Source: Saccoglossus kowalevskii (taxonomy: Eukaryota; Hemichordata; Enteropneusta; Harrimaniidae). Taken from it: a DNA stretch of 30,564 bases. Positions within the stretch are counted from its first letter, which is position 1; each line of letters begins with the position of its first letter. The notes under the pieces were generated by a model that worked only from the letters and a program-made list of their open reading frames with translations, did no database searches and was not told the origin of the DNA. Shown one piece after another: positions 3,187-26,500 of this stretch. Made by a program: the position numbers and the translations under genes. The DNA is taken from assembly GCF_000003605.2 (NCBI RefSeq), contig NW_003129878.1:44179-74742 (forward strand), in the 5' to 3' direction.

Positions 3187-3350
3187 TCAGAATGACCAGG
3201 CATCGTTGACGGTGCGTGGATACCCATGACTTGTACTGTGTCTTGTGTTGTTTAGATTGCCTTCTCTGCTGTATGTTTTGTTAATATTACTGTTGTCTGC
3301 CCACCTCTTTACGCCTGTCTTGGTGTTGTATACATACATTCTACCAGTAA
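3187..3350 (-). CDS. Cadherin exon 32: WW-like motif and C-terminus
   Basis: Phase 1 in, stop TGA at 3189-3187. Encodes VTGRMYVYNTKTGVKRWAD, which resembles strands 2-3 and the second tryptophan of a WW domain, then a serine/asparagine/histidine-rich stretch ending DAWSF. The last three residues W-S-F fit a class II-like PDZ ligand (hydrophobic-x-hydrophobic). Confidence 0.87.
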
Positions 3351-6300
3351 CTGTAAATACATTAACAAAATATTTTAATTAATGGGTCATGTTTTTACTG
3401 GTTGACGCACAATCACACCGCATACTGACATCAAACGGTCATCTCTAAATATGTCTCGTCCAAGAGAACACACTAGTAAATAAAATCGCCAGAGCAAGTA
3501 CATGTATATTATCAACCCCATTTAGTGAACAAGAGCGCATGTGCATCCTGTGAAATATTCTAGTCATTCTGACCAAGGTAAATAGTTTACATTTATTATT
3601 TCACCTCAAACATTCCCTGACATTTGCATGCTGTAACCCTTGATCCCTGACCCGTCTTATCTAAAATTCCTCGTGTCTATTAATATATGAAACAGTATCA
3701 GTACACACGAAACCAAGTCATAATTAATTCGAAATACGATATAGTTATTGTAATTAATAATATTACAAATGTTACAATAATATCACAGACATTATTATAT
3801 TATATTGTCGCATTTGCTTGATGTGAAGAAATACTAACTGCTTATATATTTATCTGTGGAGCTACTAGTTACCTGGATCAACTGCTTTCCCATCAAACAG
3901 TACATCATTTTCAATGGGTTCACCGTGAGCTAGTGTTTCCAATTGTGATGACCGGATATGACGTCTTGGTGTCTTCACGGCGTTCTTTTCAGCTTCACGC
4001 GGTGTATTGATTTTCTTCACGTTAGTCCGGGGCTCAAATGCTGCCTTACGAGCGGTGTTTGTTGGTCTGGGCTATACGAATAAACAATACCATTGGGATA
4101 TCAGGGACATTATCATTGTTCTGAATCTCTGAAAGCAGCGAGTTGTACTCGCAATTTAGGTCGTTAATGTTATGCATATAAACATACATCGTTCATTGTT
4201 GAAAATCAGTATTGATTGATTGATTGATTGAAATTACGTACCAGCAGTAGGGGGTTGTTTGCGTTGGCTTTCGTATTCTTTATATATGAAACATCTGAAA
4301 AAGAAGAACCCCGTCGTGAAAACATAATCTAAGGTATCAGCTAGTGTCCGGCATTTGATGTCAAATTATGTTGGTAAACATTGCAGTCGTTCCGTGTATA
4401 TTCATTCTTCTGTGACCATTTAAATTCATACAAATATTTTCATGAGCAAAACCATTGTATATTTTTTATATTCCCTTTTTCTATCTTTTCGTTATTACTA
4501 TTATCTGGTAATTATCTCTTCGTATACGTTAAATATTTGTACCACTCAGCTTGATTTACACTATCGGCAATTAGCAGCTCGCACGCAGGCCTTATTCACG
4601 AGGGGACGCATAATGTTACCTGTTTTCTTGGGTGGTTGGTTCTTTGATTTTTCCAATTGTCGTGTCGTAACCCATGCCTGTGGTTCATTATATCGTGGAT
4701 GATTGGCTGGTAGTCTGTGCTCTTTCCTATGAAATTTATAAATAAACACATATAAAGATAAGCAATTACGAATGGCTTAACAAAGTATTCTATATTATGA
4801 TCGAATCATCAAGGGGATGCCAGGGTTGAATGATATACCCAAACAATATAGATGAATATTTGTGTTTTTTTTTTCAAATTGGATTTCATAACTTTCGCGC
4901 ATGTCACTCTTGCTGATCGACGTTTTAGGTTGCATCACTATAGTGATAAACCTAGCTTTTAGTACAATTGTCGTAGAAATGAGGTCGGTGATCCAGTCAC
5001 ATTCTCCCCATTTTCTAATTTACTTGAGGCAGAGACACGAGCGTGTTCTCCTCATAATGAAGTGTACTGAACTTGTTCGGGCGAAAATAGAATATTGTTA
5101 TCGGGTGACGTGATAAGACATACGACCTGTACATGTTCCATATACTACGTTAGTTACTTACTTTTGGCCTTGTCGTTTAATGCAGACAATAATGATGAGA
5201 CACATTAGAATAATTATAATCAATGCAGCCAGACATATAGTCAGTATACCCCACCATTCTGTGTACCATGGTGTTGGATCTTCGGGATATGGAATAGTAG
5301 GATTTATCTGTAATAACACACAGTATATTGCATGTAGAGTGCAATTGGCAGACGTTCAGTGATATAGATAATATAAATATATGTGAAGTGTCAATATTTA
5401 AAGCACACTGCATCACGATTGACGACTTCCTAGACTGCATATAGTATTATGTCACACGTGTTGCAATTTTTTATTTAAGGATAAATAAAACGAAATTACT
5501 TTTACTATGAAAACCTTAGCATCCCCGTTGGCAGGCCAGTCACACTGGTTCTCACTATAAGAGGTTACGACCCCCGCCAAATGCTAAGGAAAACTGAAAC
5601 GTATATATACATATTTACGTGAAATATTGTCCACCTATGCGGATCAGTTTGTGCAGGAGTTTTACGACGGTATGCCTTTACTGACGTCAACCAAACCTGT
5701 TACGTTATACCAGCACTATTTATAGCTGTATTGTGATTATTATCTGTGGAACTTACTTGCTCAATCTCGAAAATATCAAACGCGGTTGTCAATAGCACGT
5801 TGCTTGGATCGCCACCTTGTGCCTCTGCAGATAAAACGCGTAATATTTCCTCCCTGGTAAGAAAGTCTGCTTCTGAGTCAATACCATCAATGGTTTCAGT
5901 TTCTTGGGTGCGCATACCGTAGATTGAAATAATGGTATAGTCTTCAGTGCTAAAAATAAAATTTATAACATATTACACGTCAAATGCACTTCAAAAAAGT
6001 TACATAAAATGCTCTTTTGTGGTTTATATTAATGGTGCCATGCGAATATTATGGAATTTAAAAATTAGTATTACAAGAAAAAAACATGATTCTCGCATCA
6101 CGTTAATAACTATTACTTACACCAGAAGACGTCGTCTGAGTGACGTAGTTGCCGTTCTTGTCAGACATCTCGTATCCCAGACACCGATGAATCCAGGGGA
6201 AAACAGGGAACTTGTTTGTGATATGAATTCAGCTTTCAATGATTCGAACGTACTGCACGATGTTCCAAACTGAATGTCAACACTATATCCCTCTTTGTCA

Positions 6301-9300
6301 AAAGTATCAACGCGAATAGTCGCAAGGTCAGAGGTCAAAGACGGTTCGCCTGCAAACAATAATTTCACAGTGTTAAATCACGACTTTATTGTTGAAAATG
6401 ATTTCCTGTCAATCATGTATTGTTTGTTTGTTATTTATTTATTGGGCTTGGTCTTGGATTTTTGTAATTTGCTTTACGAATTTCGATTATGAATCCATGG
6501 TGTATGATATTATTTTCTATTTCCGACTAATTAATTACCAATAATTAACGATTAATGGCTTTCCCAAAATCTTATCTTCTCTATGCCCATAATCAAGAAT
6601 TACTAGAACCAGAAGCCCTATTCCCAACATTCTAACTAATCTACCATTCTTACCCGAATCTCTAGCTATGACGTGCGTTTTGTATGTGTCCAACAATAGC
6701 GACGCAGTTGTGAGGTAAGTCAACTCGCCGGTGAAAATATCCATCTGGAACACGTCAGTGTATTCAACTAGTGAGAATTGGAATTCAGCATTAGTGTCCA
6801 GATCAGCGTCTGTGGCTACTACCACTAATAGTACATCCGTTTTACCGTAGTCGTTCGGTATCCTAGCAACGTAGTAGGAAGGGTCGAATATTGGTTTGTT
6901 GTCATTGAGATCTAGATTGGTAACTACAACAAGGGTAGTAGATGTAAGAACGGGCACGCCGTTGTCTGATGCGATGACGTGAAATTCGATGATCTCGTTC
7001 GCCTCTCGATCTGTCGGTTCGTTGATTGTTATCTCGCCAGTGGAGGCGTCGATTTGAAAGTGGTCTAATCCCAACGTATCATCGGTGTCGATGGCATAGT
7101 TTAGGAGGGAATTCTCGTTGATATCTATATCCGTAGCGACGACAGTCAGTACCGAGGTTCCCGTTTCCAGATTCTCGTCGATGTCTATCGCGTATTCACT
7201 CTGAGTATACACTGGGTTGTTATCGTTGACATCTTCCAGTATGACACGCGTTACTACCGTGTTTTGCATCATAATCTTTTGACCTAGGTCAATAACTTTG
7301 ATAACCAGTATGTACTGTGATATTAATTCCCGGTCAAAACCGTCACCCGCGTATAGGTACCCGGTAACATCGTGGAGCGTGAAATGACCGTAATCACCGC
7401 TTACAATTGTATAGCGAAGTTGAGAGTTTGTTCCATTATCGACATCAAAAGCCGAAATATTCCCGATGTATCCACCAACCAATATATCCTCGTACACAGT
7501 AAATGTATAATTGTACGAATCAAATTGAGCAAAATTGTCATTAACATCAATTAGGTTAATATACAATGTGACGTTGGTAGATTGCGGCTCGTAACCGGCA
7601 TCATACGCCTCTATGGTAATATTGTAGGTTGCTATACTCTCTCTGTCCAGTAACTTGTCTGTGATTACATAACCTAATGCCTGGTCAATTCGAAAAGAAC
7701 CAGCCTGATTTCCAGAGACGATACGATAGCTTATTAACCGGTTTATGTCTTTGTCTGCGTCGGTGGATTGAACATGCAGAATTGTGGTACCGATTGCAAC
7801 ACTTTCCTCAATGTCAATGTGATAAGGGTCGGAAGAGAAAACGGGTGCGTTGTCATTCTCATCGATAAAATTGACTGTGAACGAGGCTGTGTCGGTTCTG
7901 GTTACCGTTCCGTTGTCTGAGACTTCCAGAGTTAAGATGTACGTTTCTTGATCTTCCCGGTCAGGTGACACCACGAGAGACACCTCACCGTCGTCGTTGA
8001 TGGCAAACTTACTAGGTATGTCGTCGCCATTGATTATAGCGAATGACAACAGTGCATTGTTGTCAATATCAGCATCACTCGCTCGTACCTGGTAGATAAC
8101 GGTGTCATTGGGCAAATTTTCACGTACGTTGACCACGTAAACATTGGGAGTGAACATGGGATCGTTGTCGTTGAGGTCATTCACCCACACGATGAGTCCC
8201 TTCAAAGTCGATAAAGCAGGCGTGCCACCGTCAGTTGCGGTGATCATAAGATAATATCGCTCTTTGCGTTCTCTGTCTAAAGTACTGATTGCAGTGCGTA
8301 TTTTGCCAGATGGTGGATCGATACTGTAAGACAGATATTGGATATCATTTAGTGAGTAAATACAAATCAAACAAATCATTGAATAAACAAAATGCTATTC
8401 GCTACTCATCAAAATAAAAATTGGGGCATGTCATTAAATGAAGCGTACTCACCTGAATGCCGCCCAGCCGTCTCCCCCGACAATAGCATAACTAATTTCA
8501 GAATTTTCATCGATATCAGCATCCGTGGCCTGGACAGTGAAGAAGTGATAGCCAGATGGAACATTTTCGTCCACATATATCTCATTTAAGTCACTTGGGA
8601 ACAACGGGTAGTTGTCGTTGACGTCTTCAATAACGACAGTCAAAAGCATGAAATCAACAAACGTGTCATTTTCATTGATGCCATCATCCATGACAGTTAT
8701 ATTCAGGTAGTGAGTGTCGTTCCTTTCCCTGTCAAGGAAAGCCCCGACTCGTACCATACCAGTGTATCTGTTACAAAGGAACTGTGATCCGCCGTATTCG
8801 TTTCCGTCTATTACGTAATATGACAACACTCCGTGTCTTCCCTTGTCCAAATCAGTGGCATTAGCGTCGAAAACCTTCGTTCCCAGAATGACATCTTCCG
8901 ATATGAATACAGTGAACGTTTCATGGTCAAACTTTGGCGTGTATTCGTTCTCTGATAGAACATTCACAGTGACCGTGGCGTCAGCGGTCAGTTCAGAAGA
9001 TGCGTCACCCAAGTTATGAGCACGTATTGTCAGTTTATATAAATCCAAAACCTCGTGGTCGAGTTTCTTATCTATCTTTAAGATGTTATTGTCCAGACGG
9101 AAGACGTTATCAATATTCCCACTTTCAATAGTAAACGTGTGCACAGAATTAGCCGTCAGATCGGCATCTGTCGTCGTCAGTGTCACAATAGCCGTTTCAG
9201 GAAGAGCGCCCTCTAGAACATCTATACTGTACGTCTGTGGTGTAAACACTGGTGGATTATCATTGTTGTCATCAACTAAGATATTATAGTCTACCGTATT

Positions 9301-11507
9301 TGTAAATATGACAGAAGCTCCTTCGATGTTGTCCGAGACTTGGATTACTAAGTTGTACGTATCTGTAGTTTCCCTGTCGAGCGATGCTGCGATTCGGATT
9401 TCTCCCGTTACTTCGTCAATTGCCCATTTATTTTCTTCGTTACCACTAGCAATGCTGAACCGCAGAAAAGCGTGGTAATCGCCAATGTCACCATCAGCAG
9501 CGAATACCTATAAGCATAACAGGAACAAAATATAAATTATATGAATGTACAAATTGATTAGTGGCCATCACGTGTACTAGTCAATGCAGACAAATTAGAA
9601 ATTGGTGGTTTTTCTTTAATATATTTCAAATTTATATACCTGCCCAACAACAGTGTCAATAGTGGTCCTCTCTTCAACGTTGATTGTAGAATACGACGCT
9701 GGGTTGAAATATGGCGTATATTCATTGACTGGTAGAACGTTAATCGTAACCATGGCGTCACCGGAAAGAGCCAATGAATTACCGACACCATCTACCCCGC
9801 TATCGTAGGCTGTCACGGTTAAGGTGTACTGAGCAGTATTTTCTATATCTAATATCTGTTGGAGTAATATTCTCACACCAGAACCCGTAGACTCTAATGT
9901 GAATTTACCCTCGTCGTTACCCGCAGTGATCTGGTAGGAAAGGTCAGAGTTCACGCCCAAGTCGTTATCAGAGCAAGCTAATGTAACAAGTGTTGTCCCG
10001 ATCTGAGTGTCCTCCAGCCATTCGGCATTGTATACAGTTGGAGTAAATATGGGATAGTTATCGTTGGCGTCCTCAACATACACCGTTATTGTAACGTCTG
10101 CATACTTTGGCCCCACTGGCGTAGTCGCTTGGTCAGTGGCTCGGGCAGTCAGAGTGTACTCGTCGTACACCTCTCTATCTAAAGCGGCTTTCACTTCAAC
10201 ATCTCCACTGAGAGCATCGATGTGGAACTTCTGTAATCCATTATCCGAACCAGACACCAGGGAATATACAATTTCACCGTCTTCGTAAGCATCGTCATCG
10301 GTAGCGACCACCTGTAGGAACGAATACCCATGGTCGCTGTCTTCGCGAACATATCTTACGTATAGGGCACTCTGCCAGACCGGTGTGAATTCGTTCACTT
10401 GAATTACCCGGATGTTAATCGTTGCCGTGGACGTTAGGGAAGGAGTTCCGAGGTCATTTACGTACACCACTAAACTATAATACTCAGTAGTTTCAATATC
10501 TAACCCTCCTGGCATAGTTATCTCACCGCTGGAGGCATCGATACTAAAGTCAGCATTGGTGTTGCTTGAAACATCGAGTTCAAAATTAAACATGGCATTG
10601 ACTCCAATATCGCTATCTGTCGTGTAGCTATAAACGTTAGTGATAAGCGTAGAACCATCTCCGACATTCTCGTATACCTCCTCTGCGAAAATATTTGGGT
10701 TGATATAAGGTTCGTTGTCGTTATAGTCATCAATGGTGACAATCACAATGTCGGTTGCTGTCAGGGACGATACGCCGGCGCTGTCAATGCAGTAAATCTC
10801 GAGGCTGTAGCTTGGGTACAACTCACGATTTAAGGATTCTGCCGTNNNNNNNNNNNNNNNNNNNNNNNNNNNNNNNNNNNNNNNNNNNNNNNNNNNNNNN
10901 NNNNNNNNNNNNNNNNNNNNNNNNNNNNNNNNNNNNNNNNNNNNNNNNNNNNNNNNNNNNNNNNNNNNNNNNNNNNNNNNNNNNNNNNNNNNNNNNNNNN
11001 NNNNNNNNNNNNNNNNNNNNNNNNNNNNNNNNNNNNNNNNNNNNNNNNNNNNNNNNNNNNNNNNNNNNNNNNNNNNNNNNNNNNNNNNNNNNNNNNNNNN
11101 NNNNNNNNNNNNNNNNNNNNNNNNNNNNNNNNNNNNNNNNNNNNNNNNNNNNNNNNNNNNNNNNNNNNNNNNNNNNNNNNNNNNNNNNNNNNNNNNNNNN
11201 NNNNNNNNNNNNNNNNNNNNNNNNNNNNNNNNNNNNNNNNNNNNNNNNNNNNNNNNNNNNNNNNNNNNNNNNNNNNNNNNNNNNNNNNNNNNNNNNNNNN
11301 NNNNNNNNNNNNNNNNNNNNNNNNNNNNNNNNNNNNNNNNNNNNNNNNNNNNNNNNNNNNNNNNNNNNNNNNNNNNNNNNNNNNNNNNNNNNNNNNNNNN
11401 NNNNNNNNNNNNNNNNNNNNNNNNNNNNNNNNNNNNNNNNNNNNNNNNNNNNNNNNNNNNNNNNNNNNNNNNNNNNNNNNNNNNNNNNNNNNNNNNNNNN
11501 NNNNNNN

Positions 11508-11582
<75 letters not shown>

Positions 11583-14500
11583 AGATTCAGAGAAGTTATT
11601 GTTTTCTACCTTGTACAACCAGATCCCATTCTTTAGTATCCTCATAATCGAATGGACTCGATATAGCTGTTGTGATAATTCCCGATGGACTGATGGAAAA
11701 TCTATTGGTACTTGGATTATCGCCACTGGTTATGGCATAATTTAATTGTTCATTTACTCCGTCGTCCTCATCCCTGAAATGATAGGAATCGTGTAATATG
11801 AATTCATCTCCCCCGAACATGTTAGCCTTTCCATGTCGGAATATATACGATAGAAGTACACGTGGTTGATTTGACCTTTGTTAAATATAGGCAGCTCAGC
11901 ATGGCAATGAGGGTCATTTGACGAACAATGTACTATAGATCCAGTTACTGTATCACAATATACACATATGTCATATAGATTATAAACAAGTGAAATTTAT
12001 TAACTTGTCGCGTTCCATATTAAACTTATTGAAATGTCATTAGCTTATACACAGCAACGCTTACACTAGAGTATCGTATGAAGCAACAACATGGTCATAG
12101 ACAGACATTTGAAACATATGATAAACTATATTCTAGCAACTTACGAGCACAGAACGATGGCTACTGTTACCGAGGAACCAACGTTTTCGTACAGCTGCGT
12201 TGCGTATATTGTTGGATCGCAGAATGGAACATTGTCATTCACATCGTCAATGTATATGTCCACGATTGCATCGGAATACAGTGCGTGAGGTATAGTACCT
12301 TCGTCTATACCTCGAATAGTTAACCTATAATAGTCCGTACTCTCACGGTCAACACTCTGTTTTACTTTGATCCAACCTGGAAAATATTGAAAATATAAAA
12401 CCGTACGTCGGTATACTGTGAAACATGTCTTTTTCGTGAGCATGTCTTTCTCGCGAATTTAGCGAGAGAACTGATTCGCTAATTCAAGATGTCGCTAATG
12501 ACTTTATTGTCAATTCAAAATGGCCGCCAAACAAAGAAATCAACAATGACAAAAGAGATTCGCTAAATCAACATTTCGCAATTACGTCATTTTACCACAA
12601 TTCGCTAAAATTGCATGCCGCTTTTTCAACATGTTTTACAGTATGTAATACGCATTGTTTTAGAATACAAATAAATTTCACACTCATCGGTCATGTGACC
12701 ACTGTATAGAAATACACTCTAAAATTATAGTGATTATAGATGTACACTTGGCCTGTGAAAATTACGATACAACAGTATCTTACCAGAAGTGGAATCGATG
12801 TAGAATCTGTCTTCATCATTTCCATCAATAATGCTGTAGACAATACGTCCGTCTTCGTAGTCAGAGTCGTCACTATCCGTAGCAATGACTTGACCAACGT
12901 CAAGGGCCAATGCGGCGTCTTCGTCTATTCTAACTGCGGTTATGACAAATAATATAAATAGTGCGAATAGAAATTCATTATACATGTGAAATGATGTATT
13001 CTTGCAGTGAAAGGCTGGTTCCTTACACAGATCATATTTCGTAATATGGATACATGTGGTATTACTAGTATAATTTAGTACCCCGAAATGTGATACCCCT
13101 GGTACGCGTGATGATAATTTGGTCAGTGAATCTACGTTGTTCTGATTCCCCGTGCCATGGTAATAGCATGTCGCATTACAAATATCGTTCAGTATTCGTT
13201 CACCAGATAATGTTATATATTTTGCTTTCCAGTTTTCAGGTATATGATTATAATTATTACAACATAAACTGTGAAAATAATATTGAAATGAGTTAACAAT
13301 CAAAAATCGATCACTTCAAAGAAAACTATAATAAGAAGCTATAGTAGAGTGAAGTGTTTCTTACAGTTATATGAACCATCATCGGTAAAGGAAGGCGTGT
13401 GCTCGTTGTATGGCAGAATGTCCACTTCAACTGTTGCCGTTGCGCTTAGTGGAGACGATCCCCCGTCTTGTACACGCACAAGAAATGTATAATGTTTCGT
13501 CACTTCAAAGTTTAAGTTGGTAACGCTATTGACACGTATTTCCCCGTTGGTGTCGACGGCGAACACGGCATCACTGTTACCCGACCCGACGATAGTAAAT
13601 GTTATAACTGTGTTTGCTGGGTCGTCCTCGTCAGTTACCAGTAACTGACCAATGACAGTGTTTACTGGTGTGTTCTCTCGCACTTCGTATTCATAAGTGA
13701 CAGGATCATAAACAGGCGTGTTGTCATTTTCGTCTGAGACAGTGATGGTCATCGTTGTAGTGGAAGATCTCTGTTGCGGAACGGTTAAAGTGTCTTTGCA
13801 TTGGACGATGAATTCCAAGGCACTTGGTGTAGCTTCCCTGTCCAGAGATGATTTGACTTCAACTAAACCCGACTCTATGTCAATGGAAAAGTAATCGGTG
13901 GAGGTAAGAAGGGTGTATTCAATATTTTCCATTGTAGCGTCGTCACCTAAATCAGAATCTGTGCAATCTATATCCATGACGTCATATCCGGGACTTGAAT
14001 ATTCAGACACGGTGGTGGAATAGAGACCTGCCGTGAAGGTAGGCGCTGCTTCGTTGTACGGTGTTATCGCCACACCAACTTGTACTGTCGTCGTTCTGGC
14101 ACCTGACGTTCCAGAGTCGCTAACTTCTACATGAAGTGAATATGCCTGAGTCGTTTCAAAATCTAACGTTTTAGCCGTTTCCACCACACCAGTTGCTGTC
14201 ACTGTAAAGTCAGCATTTGGATCAGTACTAGAGATAATGTCATAAACCAACAAACTGTTGTCTCCACTGTCGGCATCGGAGCATAAGAGATTCGCAGCTA
14301 CCGTTGACACTGCATCATTCTCAGACAACGAATTAGTGTACACGCTAGGGTCGCATGTAGGATCGTTATCATTTTCATCTTCAATATTAATGGTCACAGT
14401 CACGCTAAAAATAAACAAAAATATCTTACGTTACTCGAGGCAACGCTCCTATAATAATCAATATTTCAAGTTCTTGTACTATTTTTGCCTGACTATGAAC

Positions 14501-17500
14501 TGTCAAGGCGCACCAACTCCAAAAACGACAACGCCCATATCATTGGCTTCTTTCCACAAGAATCGGACAGTTCCAACTTGGACATTATCTTTGATTTTGG
14601 TTTGTCAATGAATAAATATCAGTGTATATGTACTTTTTTAGGCAATCGACTTCACCTTTGTGGAATTGTGGAAAGTTTGTTGGATTCTCTGTAATGACAG
14701 TACCTACATTCCCAGCACTTATCTTTGCGATCGATTGGTTTATCAATTGGTTTATCTATAGTTTCCGGACAGAAATACCAAACGATATCCGCTCCTGAGA
14801 TCCTATGATTTGAATGGAACGTAATTTGAAGAAGGATATAGAAGGCGTGATTTCGGCCCCAATGAGTTTGCTCCGTGATGGTCAGGACCATGTCGGGCCC
14901 AGTCATATCAGAGGTCAACCCCGACTTTATTGAAGCCGAACGCGTTTACACAACGATTTTTGCTGTCTCGAGCCATTCATCGCCCAAATCGAACGGTTTC
15001 GCTAAAGCCGGCCATTCATAACCGGCCACGTTGAGGTTTCGGTCGAACAAATGGTTCTTAGCTGACGTGTAAACGAGTTAGTGTAATGCATTATTAACAA
15101 TATTGTTGACACATACCTGGCATCTCTAGGTACAGTGTTAGATAAATCAGTTGCGGTAACTGTCATGGTGTACATTATCGTTTCTTCGTAATCCAGTAAA
15201 TCACTTACGATGATTACTCCGGTGTTAGTCTCTATGCGAAACTTTGGCGAAGTCATTGAGTAAGAAATCTGACCATCGATATCTGAAAAATACAATAAAT
15301 TGTTAGTTCCGAGTCAATTTCCGAGTTGACCACCGAATTAGAAATGTGATTCTTACTTACTGTCGTCTTGGTCTGTGGCTACAACTTGTAAAACAGATGT
15401 ACCAACTACCGTGCTTTCAGGTATAGTGACGCTGTAGCCGGACGGTTGAGAGAATACTGGTGTTGCGTCATTCACTGGAGTGATGATAACACTTACAAAC
15501 ACGCTTGTGCTGCGCGGAGTCGAGCCCTGATCGGCGACTTCGATCACCATCGTGTACAGTTGCTCATCTTCAAGTGATTCATAGTCAATGTCGTCGTCGG
15601 TTCTTATGACCCCTGTGCTGCTGATCACGAAATCAGAATTACTGCCGCTGAGGATAGCATAGGTTAAATCGCCATTTTGTCCATCGTCCAGATCACTACA
15701 TGTAATCGTACCAATACTCGTACCAGAGGCCGTGTTCTCGGGTATCTCGTATGTATATAAATCTGGATTACAAAGTGGATCGTTGTCATTCACGTCCACT
15801 ATTGTGATCGATACGCTGATCGTAGCCGTTAGGTCGATACCCCCGTTTAGATTTCTGTCAGCGGCCTGTATTAGGAGACTGTAGCTATTAACTGTTTCTC
15901 GGTCTAAGGTTTTAACTAAGAATATATTTCCATTCGTAGAATCTATATCAAATTTTCCTGCAGAGTTCCCTGATTCGATAGTATATGATATCTGTCCATG
16001 TGCGTTCAAATCAAGATCATCGTCAGAGGCGTCCACATCAACGAGGACATCTCCCACACTCCTGTCCTCGTCGATTTCAAACGGATCAGTGTAAATCGTC
16101 GGGCTAAATACGGGCGTAAACTCATTCACTGGATACGTTGTAAGAGCAATGGGTATCACTATCGTATTTGTAGGTGAATTACCATTGTTATCAGACACTG
16201 TTACCTCTACGCTGTGATAGATTTTACTCTCGAAGTCCAGTTGTTTGGCCAACTGTAGTTCATTAGCGACAAGTTTGAAATATCCATCGCTGTTACCTGT
16301 GTGGACAACAACAACGACGACGTACAGTTATTTTACTTCTTTAAAACACACTGTATACTCATCCGATGATGTCTGAATATACTCACTTGACAACTAACTA
16401 TGACAGGAATGTTTTGGGTTTTATTGCGTACACATTTGAACAAAAATCGCCGCACACGTTTATATTTCAGTTATTATTGTTATTTTATCAACAACGACTG
16501 GCGGTCAAAGGTGCATTATGGGTATTTTGCTCGCTATAACATGTTGCTATGTACATCCTGAATAGTTTTAGCTTTAATTAATTAGGAATTCAGAGTACAT
16601 TATATTACATACTGTGACATTATATGGAATAAACATAGTTAAAATCTCGCAATTGGTACACGGTGTACATACCAGACGTGATGGAGTACGCAAAACCAGC
16701 AACTCCGTAGTCGGCATCGTCTGTATCTGTACACGTTATCGTCGCTACAACAAAATCAGTGCCTTCGTCTTCGGCGATTGTTTCACTGAAGAACGCCGGG
16801 CTACATTCAGGGTATTTGTCATTAATATCACTGATTGTCACTTGCACTGTGGTCGTATCAGATAAAGCCGGGCTTCCTCCGTCTTGAACTTTCACTAAGA
16901 GATCATACGATGAGTGTGTTTCTCTGTCCAATGGAGCTTTAACTGATATGGCGCCAGACGACGGGTCAATCTGAAACTGTCCATCCGGGTCGCCGTTGGT
17001 AACTGTGTATCTATAGCAAAGAATATTGAAAATACTAAACACTCAAGCAAGACATCACATAGTCAACCGCGTATGCGCACGAGATTGAACTACGTGATAT
17101 TATCAGGCGAGAACGGAAATACAAAATATAAAAATGCTTAGACAAAAGTAGAGGAATGTAGTATACCTATGAGAACGCCCAACGTCTTGCTCATGGCTAC
17201 GTTACGAACCATATATGACATTGTAACTATAGAACAAAACATTCATACTCACGTGAGAATGCCGTGGATATGATCATTTCTATCATTATCAACAGCACCA
17301 ACAGTTACAAACACATCCCCCACACTAAACTCTTCGCTAATAGTTTCACTGTATAGATCTTGGTCGAAATCAGGAGTGTATTCATTGACGGCGTTTACTT
17401 CGATGCTTATAGGAATAGTGGTCGTCTTTCGCAGGTTTGCGTCAGCAGAGTTGTCTCTTGCAAAAACAGTCAGAATATACGTTGTCTCCCCTGTAAGTCA

Positions 17501-20500
17501 AACATACATACATACAAAACATATAATTATTGGTGTTCCACGAAGTGACAATGAAGCGTACTAATAATAAATTATTGAGTAGTTTTCTAAATAACGTAGA
17601 AATCATAAAACGATGACATACCTGAATCAAAATCTACCGCCGTATCAAGCGTGAGACTACCCGTGCCACTGATAACGAATTTACTCGAAGGCGTTTGGGT
17701 TAAATCGAAAAGTACAGTTCCGTCGACACTACTATCGTCATCCGTACACGTGATTTTCACAACCTGACAATGGTAAACACAAAATAATATGGAGTTGTTA
17801 AGTGTCAGTGCTCATAGTCCCGGGGCAGTGCTACACTCATTGAGTTGTTAAAGCGGGGAGTCGTCACCTACGCATAGTGCCATAGTGTGTCATTGTTTAC
17901 AAACAAGCGTCTACCCAAGAGCCTCTGCGTTCTTAGCGTGTGTTGTTATCATCGCCTGGGACTCAATTCTCGCGCGTGCGCACGTGACGACCCTCGCGCT
18001 TTAAGGAATTACGTAAATAGGGCATAAGGCCAGTATTTGACATCTCATAGGCGACAATGCTAACGCTTGATTGCATACCATAACACCAAAACATTGTTGA
18101 GTCAAACTGCCCACAATTAATTCTATTCCAGTTATTCATAGAATGTGCTCAAAAGCAATACATTTCCGAAATCGGAAAGTTAGCGGAAACCAAAGCATAT
18201 CGTCTAAACACATGTATGTCAGATCACAGACACCAGCGACTTTCAATTGACCTGATCTAAATATATAAATTACTCTTTGTGTGGTGTTTATTCGATTAGA
18301 CGCTTTATATTGTGCGTAGTTCATTATTTCAACAAAGAAACTCTCTTGTGCTTATTGATGAAACAATTTTTCACAAGAGGTGAATATCACTAGTAAACAT
18401 TTATACACACATATTCGATATTGCCTCTTGCAGATATCTCACATTATAGAGATGTCGTAAATATCACATGGAGATATCTCACATTATATAGATGCCGTGA
18501 ATATCACATGCAGATATCTCACATTATAGAGATGTCGTAAATATCACATGGAGATATCATGCATTATAGAAATGTCGTAAATATCATATGCCGATATCTC
18601 ACATTATAGAGATGTCGTAAATATCGCATGGATATAATCATGCATTATGGAAATGTCGTAAATATCACATGCAGATATTTCACATTATAGGGATGTCGTA
18701 AATATCACATGGAGATATCACGCATTATAGAAATGTCGTAAATATCACATGCAGATATCTCACATTATAGAGGTGTCGTAAATATCGCATGGAGATATCA
18801 TGCATTATAGAAATGTCGTAAATATCACACACAGAAATCTCACATTATAGAGATGCTGTAAATATCACATGGAAATATCATGCATTATAGAAATGTCGTA
18901 AATATCACATGCAGAAATCTCACATTATATAGATGTCGTAAATATCACATGGAGATATCACGCATTATAGAAATGTCGTAAATATCACATGCAGAAATCT
19001 CACATTATAGAGATGTCGTAAATATCACATGGAGATATCATGCATTATAGACATGTCGTAAATATCACATGCAGATATTTCACATTATAGAGATGTCGTA
19101 AATATCACATGGAGATATCATGCATTATAGAAATGTCGTAAATATCACATGCAGATATCATGCATTTTAGAGATGCCGTAAATATCACATGCAGATATCA
19201 TGCATTATAGAAATGTCGTAAATATCACATGCAGATATCTCACATTATATAGATGTCGTAAATATTACAAGGAGCTATCATGCAATATGGAAATGTCATA
19301 AATATCACATGCAGATATCTCACATTATAGAGATGTCGTAAATATCGCATGGAGATATCATGCATTATAGAAATGTCATAAATATCACATGCAGATATCT
19401 CACATTAAATAGATGTCCTAAATATCACAAGGAGCTATAATGCATTATGGAAATGTCATAAATGTCACATGCAGATATCTCACATTATAGAGATGTCGTA
19501 AATATCACAAGGAGCTATCATGCATTATGGAAATGTCATAAATATCACATGCAGATATCTCACATTATAGAGATGTCGTAAATATCGCATGGAGATATGC
19601 ATTATAGAAATGTCATAAATATCACATGCAGATATCTCACATTATATATATGTCGTAAATATCACAAGGAGCTATCATGCATTATATAAATGTCATAAAT
19701 ATCACATGCAGATATATCACATTATAGAGATGTCGTAAATATCGCATGGAGATATCATGCATTATAGAAATGTCGTAAATATCACATGCAGATATCATGC
19801 ATTTTAGAGATGTCGTAAATACCACATGCAGATATCATGCATTATAGAGATGTCGTAAATATCACATGGAGATATCTCACATTATAGAGATGTCGTAAAT
19901 ATCACATGGAGATATCATGCATTATAGAGATGTCGTAAATATCACATGTAGATATCTCACATTATAGAGATGTCGTAAATATCACATGTAGATATCTCAC
20001 ATTATAGAGATGTCGTAAATATCACATGGAGATATCTCACATTATAGAGATGTCGTAAATATCACATGGAGATATCTCACATTATAGAGATGTCGTAAAT
20101 ATCACACGGAAGTGTCATGCATTATAGAGATGTCGAAAATATCAAATGGAGGTATTTTACGTTAGAGAGATATCGAACATGTCACATGTACATATTTCGC
20201 AATATAGAGTTGTCAAAAATATCACATGTAGATGTCATGCATTATAGAGATGTAAATAACACATGGAGGTGTCAAGCATTATAGAGATGTCGAAAATATC
20301 AAATGGAGGTATGCTACGTTAGAGAGATATCGAACATATCACATGTACGTATTTCGCAATATAAAGTTGTCAAATATATTACATGTAGATGTCATGCATT
20401 ATAGAGATGTCGTAAATATCACATGTATATATTTCGCATTATAGAGATGTCGAAAATGTCACATGGAGATATCTCACAGTATAGGGATATCAAAACATAT

Positions 20501-23500
20501 CACATGAAGGTATGTCACATTATAGAGATATAGAATTTATCACATGTATATATTACACATTATAGAGATGTTGTAAAATATCACATGGATATATCTCAAA
20601 TTATAGGGATATCGAAACATCACATGGAGGTATGTTACGTTATAGAGATATCGAACATATCACATGTATAGATTTCGCATTATAGACGTGTCAAAATATC
20701 ACATGGAGGTATGTTACGTTATAGAGATATCGAATATATCACATGTATATATTTCGCATTATAGACGTGTCAAAATATCACATGGAGGTATGTTACGTTA
20801 TAGAGATATCGAACATATCACATGTATATATTTCGCATTATAGACGTGTCAAAATATCACATGGAGGTATTGCACATTATAGAGATGTTGAAACATATCA
20901 CATATATTTCGCAGTATAGAGGTGTCGAAAAATATCACACGAGGTATCTCACATTATAGTGATATAAAAAATATCACGTAAAAGTTGACATGAATGTATT
21001 TCATATTACAGAGATATCGAACATGTCATACGAATGTATCTCACATTATAAATTTATCGAAACATAACACCTGACTGTATGTCACATTCGAGAGATATCA
21101 ACAATTTTCACATGAAATGTATTTCATATTATAGAAATATCGAACATATCACATGGATGTATCTAACATTAGAGATAAAACACATGGAGGTATCTTGCAT
21201 TTTAGAAATGTCAAAAATACCACCTGTATGCATCTGTCACCATGGGGATATCGAAAAACATGGAGATATCTCACATTATAGATATGTCGAAACATATCAC
21301 ATGAATATATCTCGCATTATATAGTTATAGAAACATATCGCATGGATCTATCCCACATTATAAAATTACCAAAACATAGCACATGAATATATCTTACATG
21401 ATTGAGATATAGCAACGTCACATGAATGTATCTCACAGTATAAATATATAGAAAAATAGGAGATATCGAAACATCTCACGTAGATATATCTCAAAGTAGA
21501 GAGATATCAAAAGATCACATGAATATATTTTACATTAAGAGATATTATGAAATATTATCCCTAAACGTGTCATACACTCGGTAATATATGTCATAATAAC
21601 TTTAAAAATAACTTACTTCACCACTTGTGGAGAACGTTTCATCAATTGACCCGCTATGCGAGGTTGGAGAGCATGCTGGGTAATTATCGTTGACATCATT
21701 AATCGACACCGTTACTGTACCGGTAGTTTCCAGTCCACCATAGTCTTCTGCCACAATGAATAAAACATAACGGGTCGTGGTTTCATAATCTAGTCCAGAC
21801 GTTACTTTGATTGTTCCTGCAAATAACCAATAATTGCTTATTTAATTCCCGTGATCATAGAGTGCGTGTGTGTGGGGTAGGGGTGCATTCAATGTAAATG
21901 CAATGAATCATGTTAACATTTTTTATCGGAACATACACACTCGGAGAAATTAATCATTGCTTGTTAGAAGAAATGCATTGTGGGAAATATATACGGACAA
22001 GTAGTGTATTAGGTCACGTGACTCGTCATGTGGATTCTAGCTTACCTGTAGAAGAATCGATACCAAATGGTACATTGGCTGGAGAGTCTATTCGATGACG
22101 TATTATACCGTGTATGTGATCACTGAGATCATCATCACTTGCACTCATGATTGTCACCTGGTAACCATTCGTTGCGTCTTCATCCACATACACCGTGACG
22201 TCAGAACTAGATGTGAATGACGGGGAATATTCATTGATGGGTCCAACCTTAACTGTGACTATGACGGTTGTTGACAGGCGATTGGCTGTTGTAGGATCAT
22301 TGTCTCGTACCTACGATATGATCACAAACAAATACGAATGGAGATTACATTGAGTATTTCAAACAGAACAACGAACTATTAAAAAGATAATTATTCGTTA
22401 AACTTACAATGATATTTAATTTATATTCCTGCGTCCCGGACTCATAATCTAGAGTTTGTCCGTTAGCGAGCGTCACACCACCGTCTGTTTGATCCATCGT
22501 GAATTCAGTCACCGAAGGCGATATGGTATAAACTAAATCACCGAAATTTGAAGAATCTGCATCCTCGCAGTCCAGAGTTACAAACTTTGTGTTTGACACA
22601 GTGTCCTCATACACAGTTACAGTATACAGGTACACAGCACACGATGGAACGATGTCATTAACATCCGTGATAGTCACGGACACTGACTGTGTTTGAGACT
22701 GTGCCGGATCACCGCCGTCTACAGCACGGATGACCAGGCTGTAATACTTGTTACTTCCCATTGTGTCGTAGTCGATTTCTTTTTTAATGCGGATGACTCC
22801 TGAAGACGGGTCAATTTCAAACGATTCATGAGTGTCGCCACTGATTAATAAGTACGATACCTCACCGTCTGTACCCCTGTCACCGTCGTCAGCATGTATC
22901 GTCACCACCGATGTGCCGACACTCAGTTGTTCAGGAATCTGAAAGGAAAGCAATTTTACCGGTAATTGAGTACTGATGGCAATTATCGGCGTCCGTAACT
23001 AGGATAAGGCACAGTTATTTGGTTAAAGCATGGAAGGTACTAACGTTAGTACCTTCTATGGTTAAAGTGACGACGACGGGTACTCTGACATATCTTTATA
23101 AAACACACATCGACGTGATAGGGATATTTAGTGTCGTTTTAAGATTTCAGACGAACTAATGTCAGCTCATGAACAAATTTTAATATAAAGGCGCGCAAAT
23201 AACTGGTTTTCAAATGTCACAATATATATATTCGTAAAAAATACGCGAAAGTCTTTCGAAATCACTCAATCTATACAACTTTCGATAGATCGCTATTGTC
23301 TCAAACTATGCATGAACTATCCACATATAACACGACGTCGCAGATACAGATAAGGTATCCAATGGAGCAGTTACGGCGCAGGTGAATTTTAACAAAGTAC
23401 TTACACTGACAGGATTAGGGTCGGGGTTAATGAAAGTGGGTGTATCCTCATTAATTCCGGTGATCTCCACTTGTACGACAGCAGTGCCTGACAACCCGGC

Positions 23501-26500
23501 GCCATTGTTGTCTCGAGCTCTGATAACAAGAGTATAGCTCTGTGCTTCGGCCACGTCATCATAGTCAATACTAGTAGTAAGCCTTACAGATGGATTGAGG
23601 GTACCAGTCGTCACTGGTAATGTAAATTTACCTTCAGAATTACCTGCAAGGATAAGGGTAAACATATACGTGATAGAGGAAAACATATCTAATGTGTGAT
23701 TGCGAAGTGTTGAATATGTTATGTTGTATAATGTGTTGAACTTGTTCTGCACGATCGATTGGATCATAGAATATGGCACAGACTTCTCATCCGTTCAATA
23801 CTAATGCAATGGTATTCACACTCTACTCACCCGACAATATGTCGTAGACAATTTCGGAATTGGGTGAGTCTTCATCGATACAGTTAAGTGAGGTAGCATC
23901 CACGCCAGTATTAGCAGCGGTTTCCGTCAACGACACCGATATAACGTAAGGGTTGAAATACGGCGCAACGTCATTTACGTTGACAATCGTTATGACCACT
24001 GACGCCGTCACCGTGTTCGGATCGTTCAAATCTCCGTCCGTGGCTCTAACGGTTAATGTGTAAGACGACCTGGTTTCATAGTCCAGCGTGTTTCGGAGTT
24101 TGATAGAACCAGTTATTGGTTCGATGCTGAATTTCGGCTGGGACGCATCGTCACCGCTGATGATTTCATAGGTGACCGTGTCGAAAGGCCAATCGTTATC
24201 AGTAGCAACGACTGTAACCACCACATAACCTACGTTCTCATCCTCATCCACACTCGCCGAGTAAGATGCCTGTGAGAACTGTGGGGAATTATCGTTGATG
24301 TCCGTGATTTGCACAATTACAGTAGCAGTTCCTGCAACAAATATCACGCATACATTAGACCTAGTCAACGAAGGGGCCATGCACCCAAAAGGAAATTAAC
24401 CGGCAGACATCTATTCTGTTACTCCGATAATAACACGCCTAATGCACAAGAATAAAGTAACCTTACCCGTTAGACTTGAAGGATTGGATCCACCGTCAGC
24501 AGCTTCAAAAACTAGTTCATAGCGATGATTGTTACTGGCCAATGAACTGTCGTCATAGTTTAAATTCGACTTCACCTGTAGTACAAACAACATTTATAGA
24601 ATTACAGTGCCAATACTAGACAGTTGCATGTAATAGTTACTGAACCGTGTCCATGCACAATCTATAATTTTATATTCTGCTTTTGATTACTAGTGTGTAA
24701 TATACATGTGATACCAAACAAAACAGTACTCAAAATTACCCATATTACAATAACCAAATGCAATCAAATACATACGAATAAAGTCAAAAACAAACAGTAA
24801 AATAAAGTTGCAAGAATGTAAACATAAATTTATTAACTACTAAGGTATTAGATACGTCGTGTTGATTTTTTTGTTTCGATGAATATTTGCTGGAAACTAA
24901 ACTTTTTTTTCTTCAAATTATATAACCAGTAGTTCGACCTTGAATTCTTTGTCTATTCACTGACTAATACCACCCTACCGTAACAACTCCCGCGTTTGTG
25001 TATTGGAAGTAAACGTTGCTGCCTGACGTCATCGATATAGTGATGTCATTATTTGGACTTGAGCCGTCTTTGTCTGTGCATACCAGCGATGCAACTAAAT
25101 CGTTGACGTTACTATCTTCTGCCAATACAGCTCCTGTTAAAATATGGAAATTATTCATAAACATCATACATTGTCAATGAGAGTGAAATTTGTCTGATTC
25201 TTGTATGTCGCTACTTTATCTGAAGGTTTCCTTTATAAAGTGGAAAAGAAAAATAACATCAAAGCTTTGAGTTGAAAGGTTACAACCGGATCGTATTAAT
25301 TATCAATCTTGATGTCAGTCTATTGCAATACCCGTATACTGTAAGGATGTACTGTGATTATGCTTGCACGTCGATCTACAACGTTTTATTTTTATTTTTG
25401 GTTTGTTGCCTTATTTGTCTTTACGGCGTGTACCTATCTTCTTTGTCTTCCAAATAAATCGCCCGTACGTGCGTTCGTTCGAGATTGGTTTACACACAGT
25501 ACCTCAACAGAAGAGGAGGGACTGTGGTTTACATTATAAACTGAGATTGAAGTGTAGATGACACTTCGTCAGACACCATGCTTATTTATTTAAATCTAAT
25601 TTTAATTTCCAAGTTTTATATGTCGCAGATCTACCCGTCATGCCAGTCATGATCTGGTCGTATTGTAGATACAGTGTAGATACTCACACATAGACAGATG
25701 GGTTACATGTGGGTGTGTTGTCGTTGACATCTCGTAGATTGATTACCACTGTAACTGTCGACGAATGAGTTCTGTCATCGTCGTACGCCCTCACCGGTAT
25801 TGACCAGACATTGACCTGACTTGAGTCGTCATAATCCATTATGGAATTGGTTTTGATTGCCCCCGTCCCTGGAAGTAACATTGAACATAGCATGAATAAA
25901 CATAAAAAAGGGCATGATAGCTCGTGGATAGAATGGCTCTGTGATCGTCTCACTCACCAACACGTATAGAGATGTTTTAGGTTCCTCAATACAGGCTTTT
26001 TCGTGAGAACACGTTTTATCGCAGATGTTAGCATAGGCACAGTGTGGCATAGGGGGAACTACTTAAACTGCCGTATTTTTTACAAATATGTGCCCCCATG
26101 TTTTAGCTTTTATCGTGTTTTAAATTTTCCACATAGAGTTCTATTAAATAACTTCAAAATCTACATGCAGTAATATCACATTTATCTGAAAAAATTGGTT
26201 TGTACTTCCAATTTTTTTTCACATATGACCCTGTATAGCAATAAGCAACATATTCATAAAATATATGAAAATCGAAAGACTTTCGTGAAACTAATTGATC
26301 ATGGATACAGTGCTGCTTCCGAACTGAATGAAGAGAGACATTTAACGCTCAATCTGATTAATATAGGATCCTGGTTGCTATAATTATTATTTATTTTAAT
26401 TATTTTTTTGACGTTACAATTACTTTGCTGCAATAACATATTTATATAAATTTAATGGTAATTAATGGTAAGAATAATAAAACAAATATTAAAATACAAT

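Follow-up and report, generated by a model that had tools for sequence, protein, structure and literature searches.

The window analyzed here, a stretch of 30,564 nucleotides from the hemichordate Saccoglossus kowalevskii (contig NW_003129878.1, positions 44,179 to 74,742), is occupied for the most part by a multi-exon gene on the minus strand that encodes a giant cadherin, and in a long central zone of this protein the linkers between successive extracellular cadherin (EC) repeats alternate between a canonical and a degenerate class. We confirm this alternation in the window gene and find the same pattern in related genes, and the period of two domains is also present in the bodies of the repeats. 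Our preferred explanation, to which we assign a probability of roughly 60%, is that the protein forms a chain of two-EC links in which canonical joints, often stapled by a disulfide, alternate with a second, remodelled calcium joint, the whole chain preceding a stalk of six canonical joints. The disulfide, the calcium occupancy, the altered mechanics, and a role in spacing or force are features that we infer from sequence.

The alternating zone extends from linker EC6-7 to linker EC27-28 (positions 8605..23458 of the window; these and all other features of the gene lie on the minus strand), and its linkers were read in open exons. EC numbers follow a simple splice-site and codon-usage gene model (GT-AG by construction) with hand checks. 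Degenerate linkers occupy the even joints, which lead from an even-numbered EC to the odd-numbered EC that follows: GINEDTP at EC6-7 (23438..23458), PINEYSP at EC8-9 (22221..22241), AVNEYTP at EC10-11 (17372..17392), PVNEFTP at EC12-13 (16112..16132), PVNDATP at EC14-15 (15458..15478), PYNEAAP at EC16-17 (14041..14061), PYNEHTP at EC18-19 (13393..13413), QVNEFTP at EC22-23 (10381..10401), PVNEYTP at EC24-25 (9712..9732), and SENEYTP at EC26-27 (8935..8955). Canonical linkers occupy the odd joints: DVNDIVP at EC7-8 (22645..22665), DVNDNYP at EC9-10 (21677..21697), DINDKYP at EC11-12 (16809..16829), DVNDNDP at EC13-14 (15776..15796), DENDNDP at EC15-16 (14359..14379), DENDNTP at EC17-18 (13714..13734), DVNDNVP at EC19-20 (12225..12245), DYNDNEP at EC21-22 (10708..10728), DANDNYP at EC23-24 (10051..10071), DNNDNPP at EC25-26 (9250..9270), and DVNDNYP at EC27-28 (8605..8625). 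The last of these is also the first linker of the membrane-near stalk, the rest of which (6892..8178) comprises DLNDNDP at EC28-29, DENDNAP at EC29-30, DVNDNFA at EC30-31, DVNDNNP at EC31-32, and DLNDNKP at EC32-33. A run of 662 N bases (10846..11507) hides the end of EC20, the linker EC20-21, and the start of EC21.

The first Asp of the linker alternates in all 21 visible linkers of the zone, 10 without it and 11 with it; any one alternating arrangement of 10 linkers of one class and 11 of the other has a chance of 1 in 352,716, and in the window gene alone the first Asp is present at 0/10 even and 11/11 odd joints (P = 2.8e-6). N-terminal of the zone the gene is irregular, with DINDNSP at EC4-5 and NVNDVAP at EC5-6. 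A first-pass annotation of this DNA had listed the linkers from GINEDTP to DVNDNYP, one of them hidden in the N run, as a strictly alternating series that ends in six canonical linkers near the membrane. Every linker it listed is present in the order given and the six from EC27-28 to EC32-33 are all canonical, while the word strict holds for the first Asp and not beyond it, since the degenerate linker at EC14-15 keeps ND.

The closest relative of the window gene is a paralogue on another contig (C4774), with 28 to 46% identity between ECs at the same place. Its first Asp alternates unbroken from EC3-4 to EC27-28, and the linker that it carries at the place of the N run is the degenerate RVNEYDP, as the pattern predicts. 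When five genes are anchored on their last EC, the first Asp is found at 0/41 even joints versus 39/43 odd joints (Fisher P = 9e-20, for genes that are not independent of one another). The EC numbers of the paralogues come from their own gene models and are counted back from the last EC. The parity counts cover the parts that could be tied to a last EC, which leaves out the N-terminal halves of two neighbors of the window gene (B150 and the second half of B120) and the ECs below 14 of a third (D174); three ECs (C4774 EC12, C4774 EC21, and A88 EC19) are interrupted by a gap or intron and were each joined from two pieces, and rows gapped at a column were dropped at that column, so denominators vary.

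An origin of the pattern in the gene model, the assembly, or the picking of motifs is refuted in substance and has a negligible probability. Its basis would be a junction in EC4 that is out of frame and the one gap; the linkers, however, were read directly in open exons and are seen again in separate genes, one of them on another contig, and in the genome's other cadherin genes (stretches of contigs C347, C346, C4133, C3527, and C1513) 55/58 linkers start with Asp and show no alternation. The three linkers without it (HENEHAP, GMNEYYP, and NSNDNKP) are scattered. This count derives from 78 pattern matches, 20 of which were set aside by eye as lying inside ECs or out of register, and it covers linkers that fit the search pattern.

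The two-EC period of the array is also present outside the linker. With the linker, columns 1 and 2, and column 26 masked, and with pairs of the same EC number excluded, EC bodies of the same parity are more alike than those of different parity in 8/8 tests (four gene sets, two masks), and 0/2000 label shuffles reach values as high. Nearest neighbors in the window gene share parity at a rate of 0.81 (10/2000 shuffles as high). On an EC tree of the window gene and its C4774 paralogue the even label requires 11 changes where shuffled labels average 17.1 (2/500 shuffles as low), and the odd label 13 where they average 16.6 (15/500). The two-EC unit that the first-pass annotation had proposed is thus borne out by masked bodies that cluster by parity and by several columns outside the linker that carry it, and the clustering of repeats by parity that it expected on a tree goes beyond that of shuffles without resolving into two clades. 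The non-linker columns associated with parity (106 columns compared, P values uncorrected) include 26 and 2, which form a Cys pair, 34 and 35 in the Ca3 loop, 67 (Tyr in the DXE motif of even ECs, Arg in that of odd ECs), 24, and 79.

Two of these features are sharply divided. Cys2 and Cys26 are found together in 22/37 even ECs versus 0/24 odd ECs, and they are strongly coupled: both are present in 22 ECs, Cys2 only in 1, Cys26 only in 5, and neither in 55. The pair lies near the top of the even EC, beside the canonical joint, and its co-occurrence suggests a probable disulfide staple from strand A to the end of strand B. The Ca3 loop that follows a degenerate linker reads His-Gly or Asp-Gly ([HD]G) in 29/39 odd ECs, compared with 1/39 even ECs, 0/30 ECs of the stalk, and, by manual reading, 1/19 in other cadherin genes of the genome. 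Loop length was tried as a marker of parity, proved weak (P = 0.02), and was dropped for the [HD]G motif.

The degenerate joints differ from canonical ones in a coordinated set of positions, namely, columns 100, 103, and 104 and column 34 of the next EC. In the window gene the changes are D1 to P, G, S, A, or Q, D4 to E, and N5 to Y, F, A, H, or D, and in the EC that follows the Asn of the Ca3 loop gives way to [HD]G. Across the even joints of the five genes (n = 41), position 1 is Pro in 22, Gly in 7, Ser in 4, and Ala in 3; position 4 is Glu in 30 and Asp in 7; and position 5 is Tyr in 12, Phe in 8, Asp in 5, Ala in 4, and His in 4. Most of the other calcium ligands are kept. At all 10 visible degenerate joints of the window gene we find the Glu of XEX, both Asp residues of DXD, XDX, and the middle Asn of the linker, and the Asp of DXE is kept at 9/10 (one reads NFE) and its Glu at 8/10 (two have Asp). 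In the five genes the same holds for the Glu of XEX (38/39), D66 (36/41), D28 (38/40), D30 (39/40), XDX (42/42), and the middle Asn (40/41), and E68 is kept at 29/41 joints with Asp at 7 more. We looked for the loss of XEX, DXE, DXD, and XDX that marks the class of calcium-free linkers such as protocadherin-15 (PCDH15) EC9-10 and did not find it in these joints, where only DXNDN is regularly changed. The earlier proposal that every second joint lacks its calcium ligands and would bend for that reason is partly contradicted: D1, D4, and N5 are changed, and XEX, DXE, DXD, and XDX are mostly retained.

Some conservation of the altered residues is apparent between the window gene and its C4774 paralogue: of the colinear joints with Glu at column 103 in the window gene, 8/9 have this Glu in C4774 too. 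This bears on a historical reading, in which the array grew by the copying of a two-EC cassette after drift had altered its second joint, so that the difference between the joints would be functionless. Duplication does generate tandem paralogues and repeat arrays, the parities differ outside the linker as well, and over all gene pairs the identity of column 104 (11/61) lies below that of the EC bodies (0.31), and the fifth linker position is thus not conserved in detail. Against this, the window gene and C4774 agree more often at columns 100 and 103 than in the rest of the domain (7/10 and 8/10 identical, with 36% for the bodies), and the altered residues show covariation with a loop of the following domain; we regard a functionless echo as very unlikely.

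The composition of the altered joint also bears on the view, put forward in the first-pass annotation, that the degenerate joints are largely calcium free and floppy and that rigid two-EC rods make the molecule a periodic spring. In keeping with such a hinge, Asp1 is lost and Asn5 replaced at 10/10 visible even joints of the window gene, calcium-free linkers bend in PCDH15 EC9-10 and in Drosophila N-cadherin, and linkers with two ions or fewer have reportedly been shown to be flexible. In PCDH15 EC9-10, however, XEX, DYE, DXNDN, DXD, and XDX are all replaced, unlike the mostly intact motifs seen here, and a joint of PCDH24 with two calcium ions is straight and kept its rigidity in simulations (PMC8691648). 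Since the remaining ligand motifs are largely preserved, we did not adopt the calcium-free hinge, and we consider it distinctly unlikely.

The best reading of the degenerate joints is instead that they are remodelled rather than calcium-free joints, probably weaker or kinked, because they keep most of the other calcium ligands. Two precedents support it. The PCDH15 EC8-9 joint, DMNDY, binds three calcium ions and is bent and twisted, and its Tyr carbonyl binds calcium, so that a Tyr at position 5 may leave site 3 intact; in PCDH24 the last residue of DXNDN ligates site 3 through its carbonyl and can have any side chain (PMC8691648). These precedents favor remodelling of the calcium joint over a hinge free of calcium. 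The PCDH15 EC8-9 joint can also be cited for a purely architectural reading, in which both kinds of joint are fully loaded with calcium and rigid and differ in twist or tilt, giving a fixed zigzag or superhelix without added compliance. Most ligands are kept, and the Pro at position 1, the frequent aromatic residue at position 5, and the [HD]G opposite would suit a defined shape; the acidic ligands Asp1 and Asp4, however, are both changed and position 5 differs between paralogues, and we judge this reading unlikely.

Under our preferred explanation, EC7 to EC27 would form a chain of two-EC links. Inside a link, from an odd to an even EC, the joint would be of the standard calcium type, in many cases strengthened immediately beneath it by the probable disulfide of the even EC. 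Between links, from an even to an odd EC, there would be a remodelled calcium joint with Asp1 replaced by Pro, Gly, Ser, or Ala, Asp4 mostly by Glu, and Asn5 by Tyr, Phe, Ala, His, or Asp; the Asn in the Ca3 loop of the next domain is mostly replaced by His-Gly or Asp-Gly, and XEX, DXE, DXD, and XDX are mostly retained. Such a joint would still bind calcium, with changed number, affinity, or geometry. Asp1 is assigned to calcium site 2, and calcium would be lost mainly at that site, with site 3 rebuilt. Stiffness or direction would then change regularly at every second joint, ahead of the stiff six-joint stalk at the membrane.

Several points weigh against this proposal. The period is less distinct in the C4774 paralogue taken alone, where nearest-neighbor parity is weak (0.65; 210/2000 shuffles as high). 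The best C4774 match of a window EC has the same EC number for only 16/30 ECs, and the same parity for 24/30. The EC tree has no two clean parity clades, with few columns and 36/55 inner branches open. The alternation has exceptions, namely, SVNDNAP at C4774 EC26-27, PINDNKP at A88 EC19-20 and NEDDNYP at A88 EC9-10, and KENNYKP at D174 EC17-18 and SVNGVKP at D174 EC21-22. Over all pairs of the five genes the Glu of column 103 recurs at only 32/50 joints, and the low identity of column 104 counts here as well. E68 is lost or changed at 12/41 even joints, Pro in place of Asp1 removes an acidic ligand, so that fewer ions may be bound, and linkers with two ions or fewer have reportedly been shown to be flexible, as noted above. 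The PCDH19 mutation D341E, the same kind of change at position 4 of DXNDN, is listed among epilepsy mutations, and Glu at this position may therefore not be innocuous. The partners of the disulfide, finally, are assigned by co-occurrence only.

A bolder form of the proposal can be offered tentatively, as a conjecture that we would not favor. The even-odd joint may constitute a genuine second type among cadherin calcium joints, passed on as one block (Pro-X-Asn-Glu-aromatic together with the [HD]G loop), with a lower calcium affinity or a fixed kink, and alternating with disulfide-stapled canonical joints; the family would then be a calcium-tuned or zigzag chain with a stiffness period of two domains that spread by tandem duplication in this animal.

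The window gene model as a whole spans 3187..28284, from an ATG near 28284 to a stop near 3187, and comprises 33 EC repeats, a juxtamembrane region, a transmembrane span, and a tail; its product is best explained as a giant single-pass cadherin, with a signal peptide and transmembrane span predicted by eye. Nearly all EC repeats have 96 to 106 residues plus the 7-residue linker, and they match the Pfam family Cadherin (PF00028) above the cut-off (EC13-14, E = 2.5e-37). The signal-peptide exon (MAVIRMGHLLCMLCMLLSTAIT, 28218..28284) was read by eye, and its donor and the acceptor are both in phase 1. The transmembrane exon (WWGILTICLAALIIIILMCLIIIVCI, 5161..5295, with approximate ends) was likewise found by eye, having been missed by the gene-model script. 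A juxtamembrane non-EC region of two exons (5711..6349) is common to the paralogues and resembles membrane-adjacent domains in position only; it had no PDB or Pfam match, and a scan of this piece and of the tail gave no match to EGF or laminin G domains. The short cytoplasmic tail (exons at approximately 3187..4071) closes with GKAVDP / TGRMYVYNTKTGVKRW, whose weak resemblance to a WW domain falls below the cut-off (E = 0.061).

At the EC4 junction (approximately 25710 / 25134), the exon ending in TCNPSVY and the next exon (AVLAEDSNVND) are out of frame with every GT-AG pair tried by eye, for which an assembly error, a missed exon, and a damaged allele are possible alternatives. The long intron in EC10 (17764-21616) contains a 40/80-bp minisatellite at 18432-20977, with about 64 copies of 40 bp. 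Downstream of the cadherin gene, also on the minus strand, a second gene seems to start at about 73-1640, with small predicted exons and a short hydrophobic start; it had no significant Pfam match.

The window is part of a contig of 191,891 bp (C2180) in the 572-Mb genome, on which further giant cadherin genes, whole or partial, lie at 86.7-100 kb and 171-190 kb on the plus strand and at 139-132 kb and 153-144 kb on the minus strand, with another, a near copy, at 123-114 kb on the minus strand. These tandem paralogues carry the two-EC period. The N-terminal halves of two of the genes, at 114.5-123 kb and 144-153 kb on the minus strand, are near copies of each other, which may mean that a tandem duplication took place recently or that the contig combines two haplotypes. 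On C4774 an exon for an F5/8 type C domain (367596-367903; Pfam E = 2.5e-20) lies between the two halves of the paralogue's EC21; it may be an insert that is spliced in or, alternatively, a foreign exon located within an intron. The mitochondrial contig of the genome points to a hemichordate, probably an acorn worm, since its genes are best read with AAA as Lys and ATA as Ile. For ND1, AAA as Lys gives the highest score (359.2 bits with NCBI table 4, 355.3 with table 5, and 340.9 with table 9), and for COX1, ATA as Ile does (504.7 with table 4, 504.4 with table 9, and 494.9 with table 5). A published account (PMC2697986) gives ATA as Ile for both echinoderms and hemichordates and AAA as Lys for Saccoglossus, compared with AAA as Asn in echinoderms and ATA as Met in Xenoturbella, and an echinoderm origin is accordingly disfavored. 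A conserved Ser at an AGR codon in ND1 is the one feature that speaks against nonbilaterian animals with table 4.

Individual noncanonical joints have already been described in PCDH15, PCDH24, cadherin-23 (CDH23), and Drosophila N-cadherin. The literature searched, which included few subscription papers, yielded no report of two joint classes that alternate regularly in register with a two-EC unit, and the available parts of a genome-wide survey of echinoderm cadherins (PMC10734073) describe no such pattern. Our findings show that a two-domain period can be encoded in a cadherin array, and this pattern suggests that stiff links of two domains each are connected into a chain through joints of a second kind. 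Because the published noncanonical joints considered here are single sites, it is hard to tell from them which residues make such a joint and what it is for. Here one chain holds 10 visible, and probably 11, natural repeats of the altered joint, each with a canonical neighbor as its control, and the same arrangement recurs in several paralogues. How linker sequence relates to calcium binding and to the mechanics of the joint can thus be tested directly.

The PDB matches of the window gene are generic, the best being CELSR1, protocadherins gamma, and Cdh23, and we claim no orthology to CDH23. Like CDH23 and PCDH15, the protein has a long, predicted single-pass EC array and a non-EC region before the membrane, and, as a further point in common, neither its juxtamembrane piece nor its tail matched EGF or laminin G domains; it differs in having 33 ECs rather than 27 or 11 and in a juxtamembrane region without sequence match to PDB chains. 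Most CDH23 repeats are predicted to be canonical, whereas 10/21 visible zone linkers, at every second joint, are degenerate here. One joint similar to the altered ones is PCDH15 EC8-9, which also has an aromatic fifth linker residue and keeps most other ligands, but it is a single joint that retains Asp1 and Asp4, whereas Pro, Glu, and often an aromatic residue occur together and periodically here. PCDH15 EC9-10, Drosophila N-cadherin EC2-3, and CDH23 EC12-13 (a candidate bend) are likewise noncanonical joints inside long cadherins; these are described as single places, and the joints of the present array are periodic and keep most ligands. Fat and Dachsous also have giant EC arrays, with 34 and 27 repeats, and the excerpts consulted do not mention an alternation for them. 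Fat has EGF and laminin G domains after its ECs, unlike the present protein, in which the scanned juxtamembrane piece and tail gave no match to either between the last EC and the membrane. Among classical cadherins, the alignment shows a Cadherin-1 joint, DVNE-AP, with the same change of Asp to Glu at linker position 4; this joint, which we take to be EC3-4 and to bind calcium, differs from those described here in that it keeps Asp1, is one residue shorter, and is a single joint.

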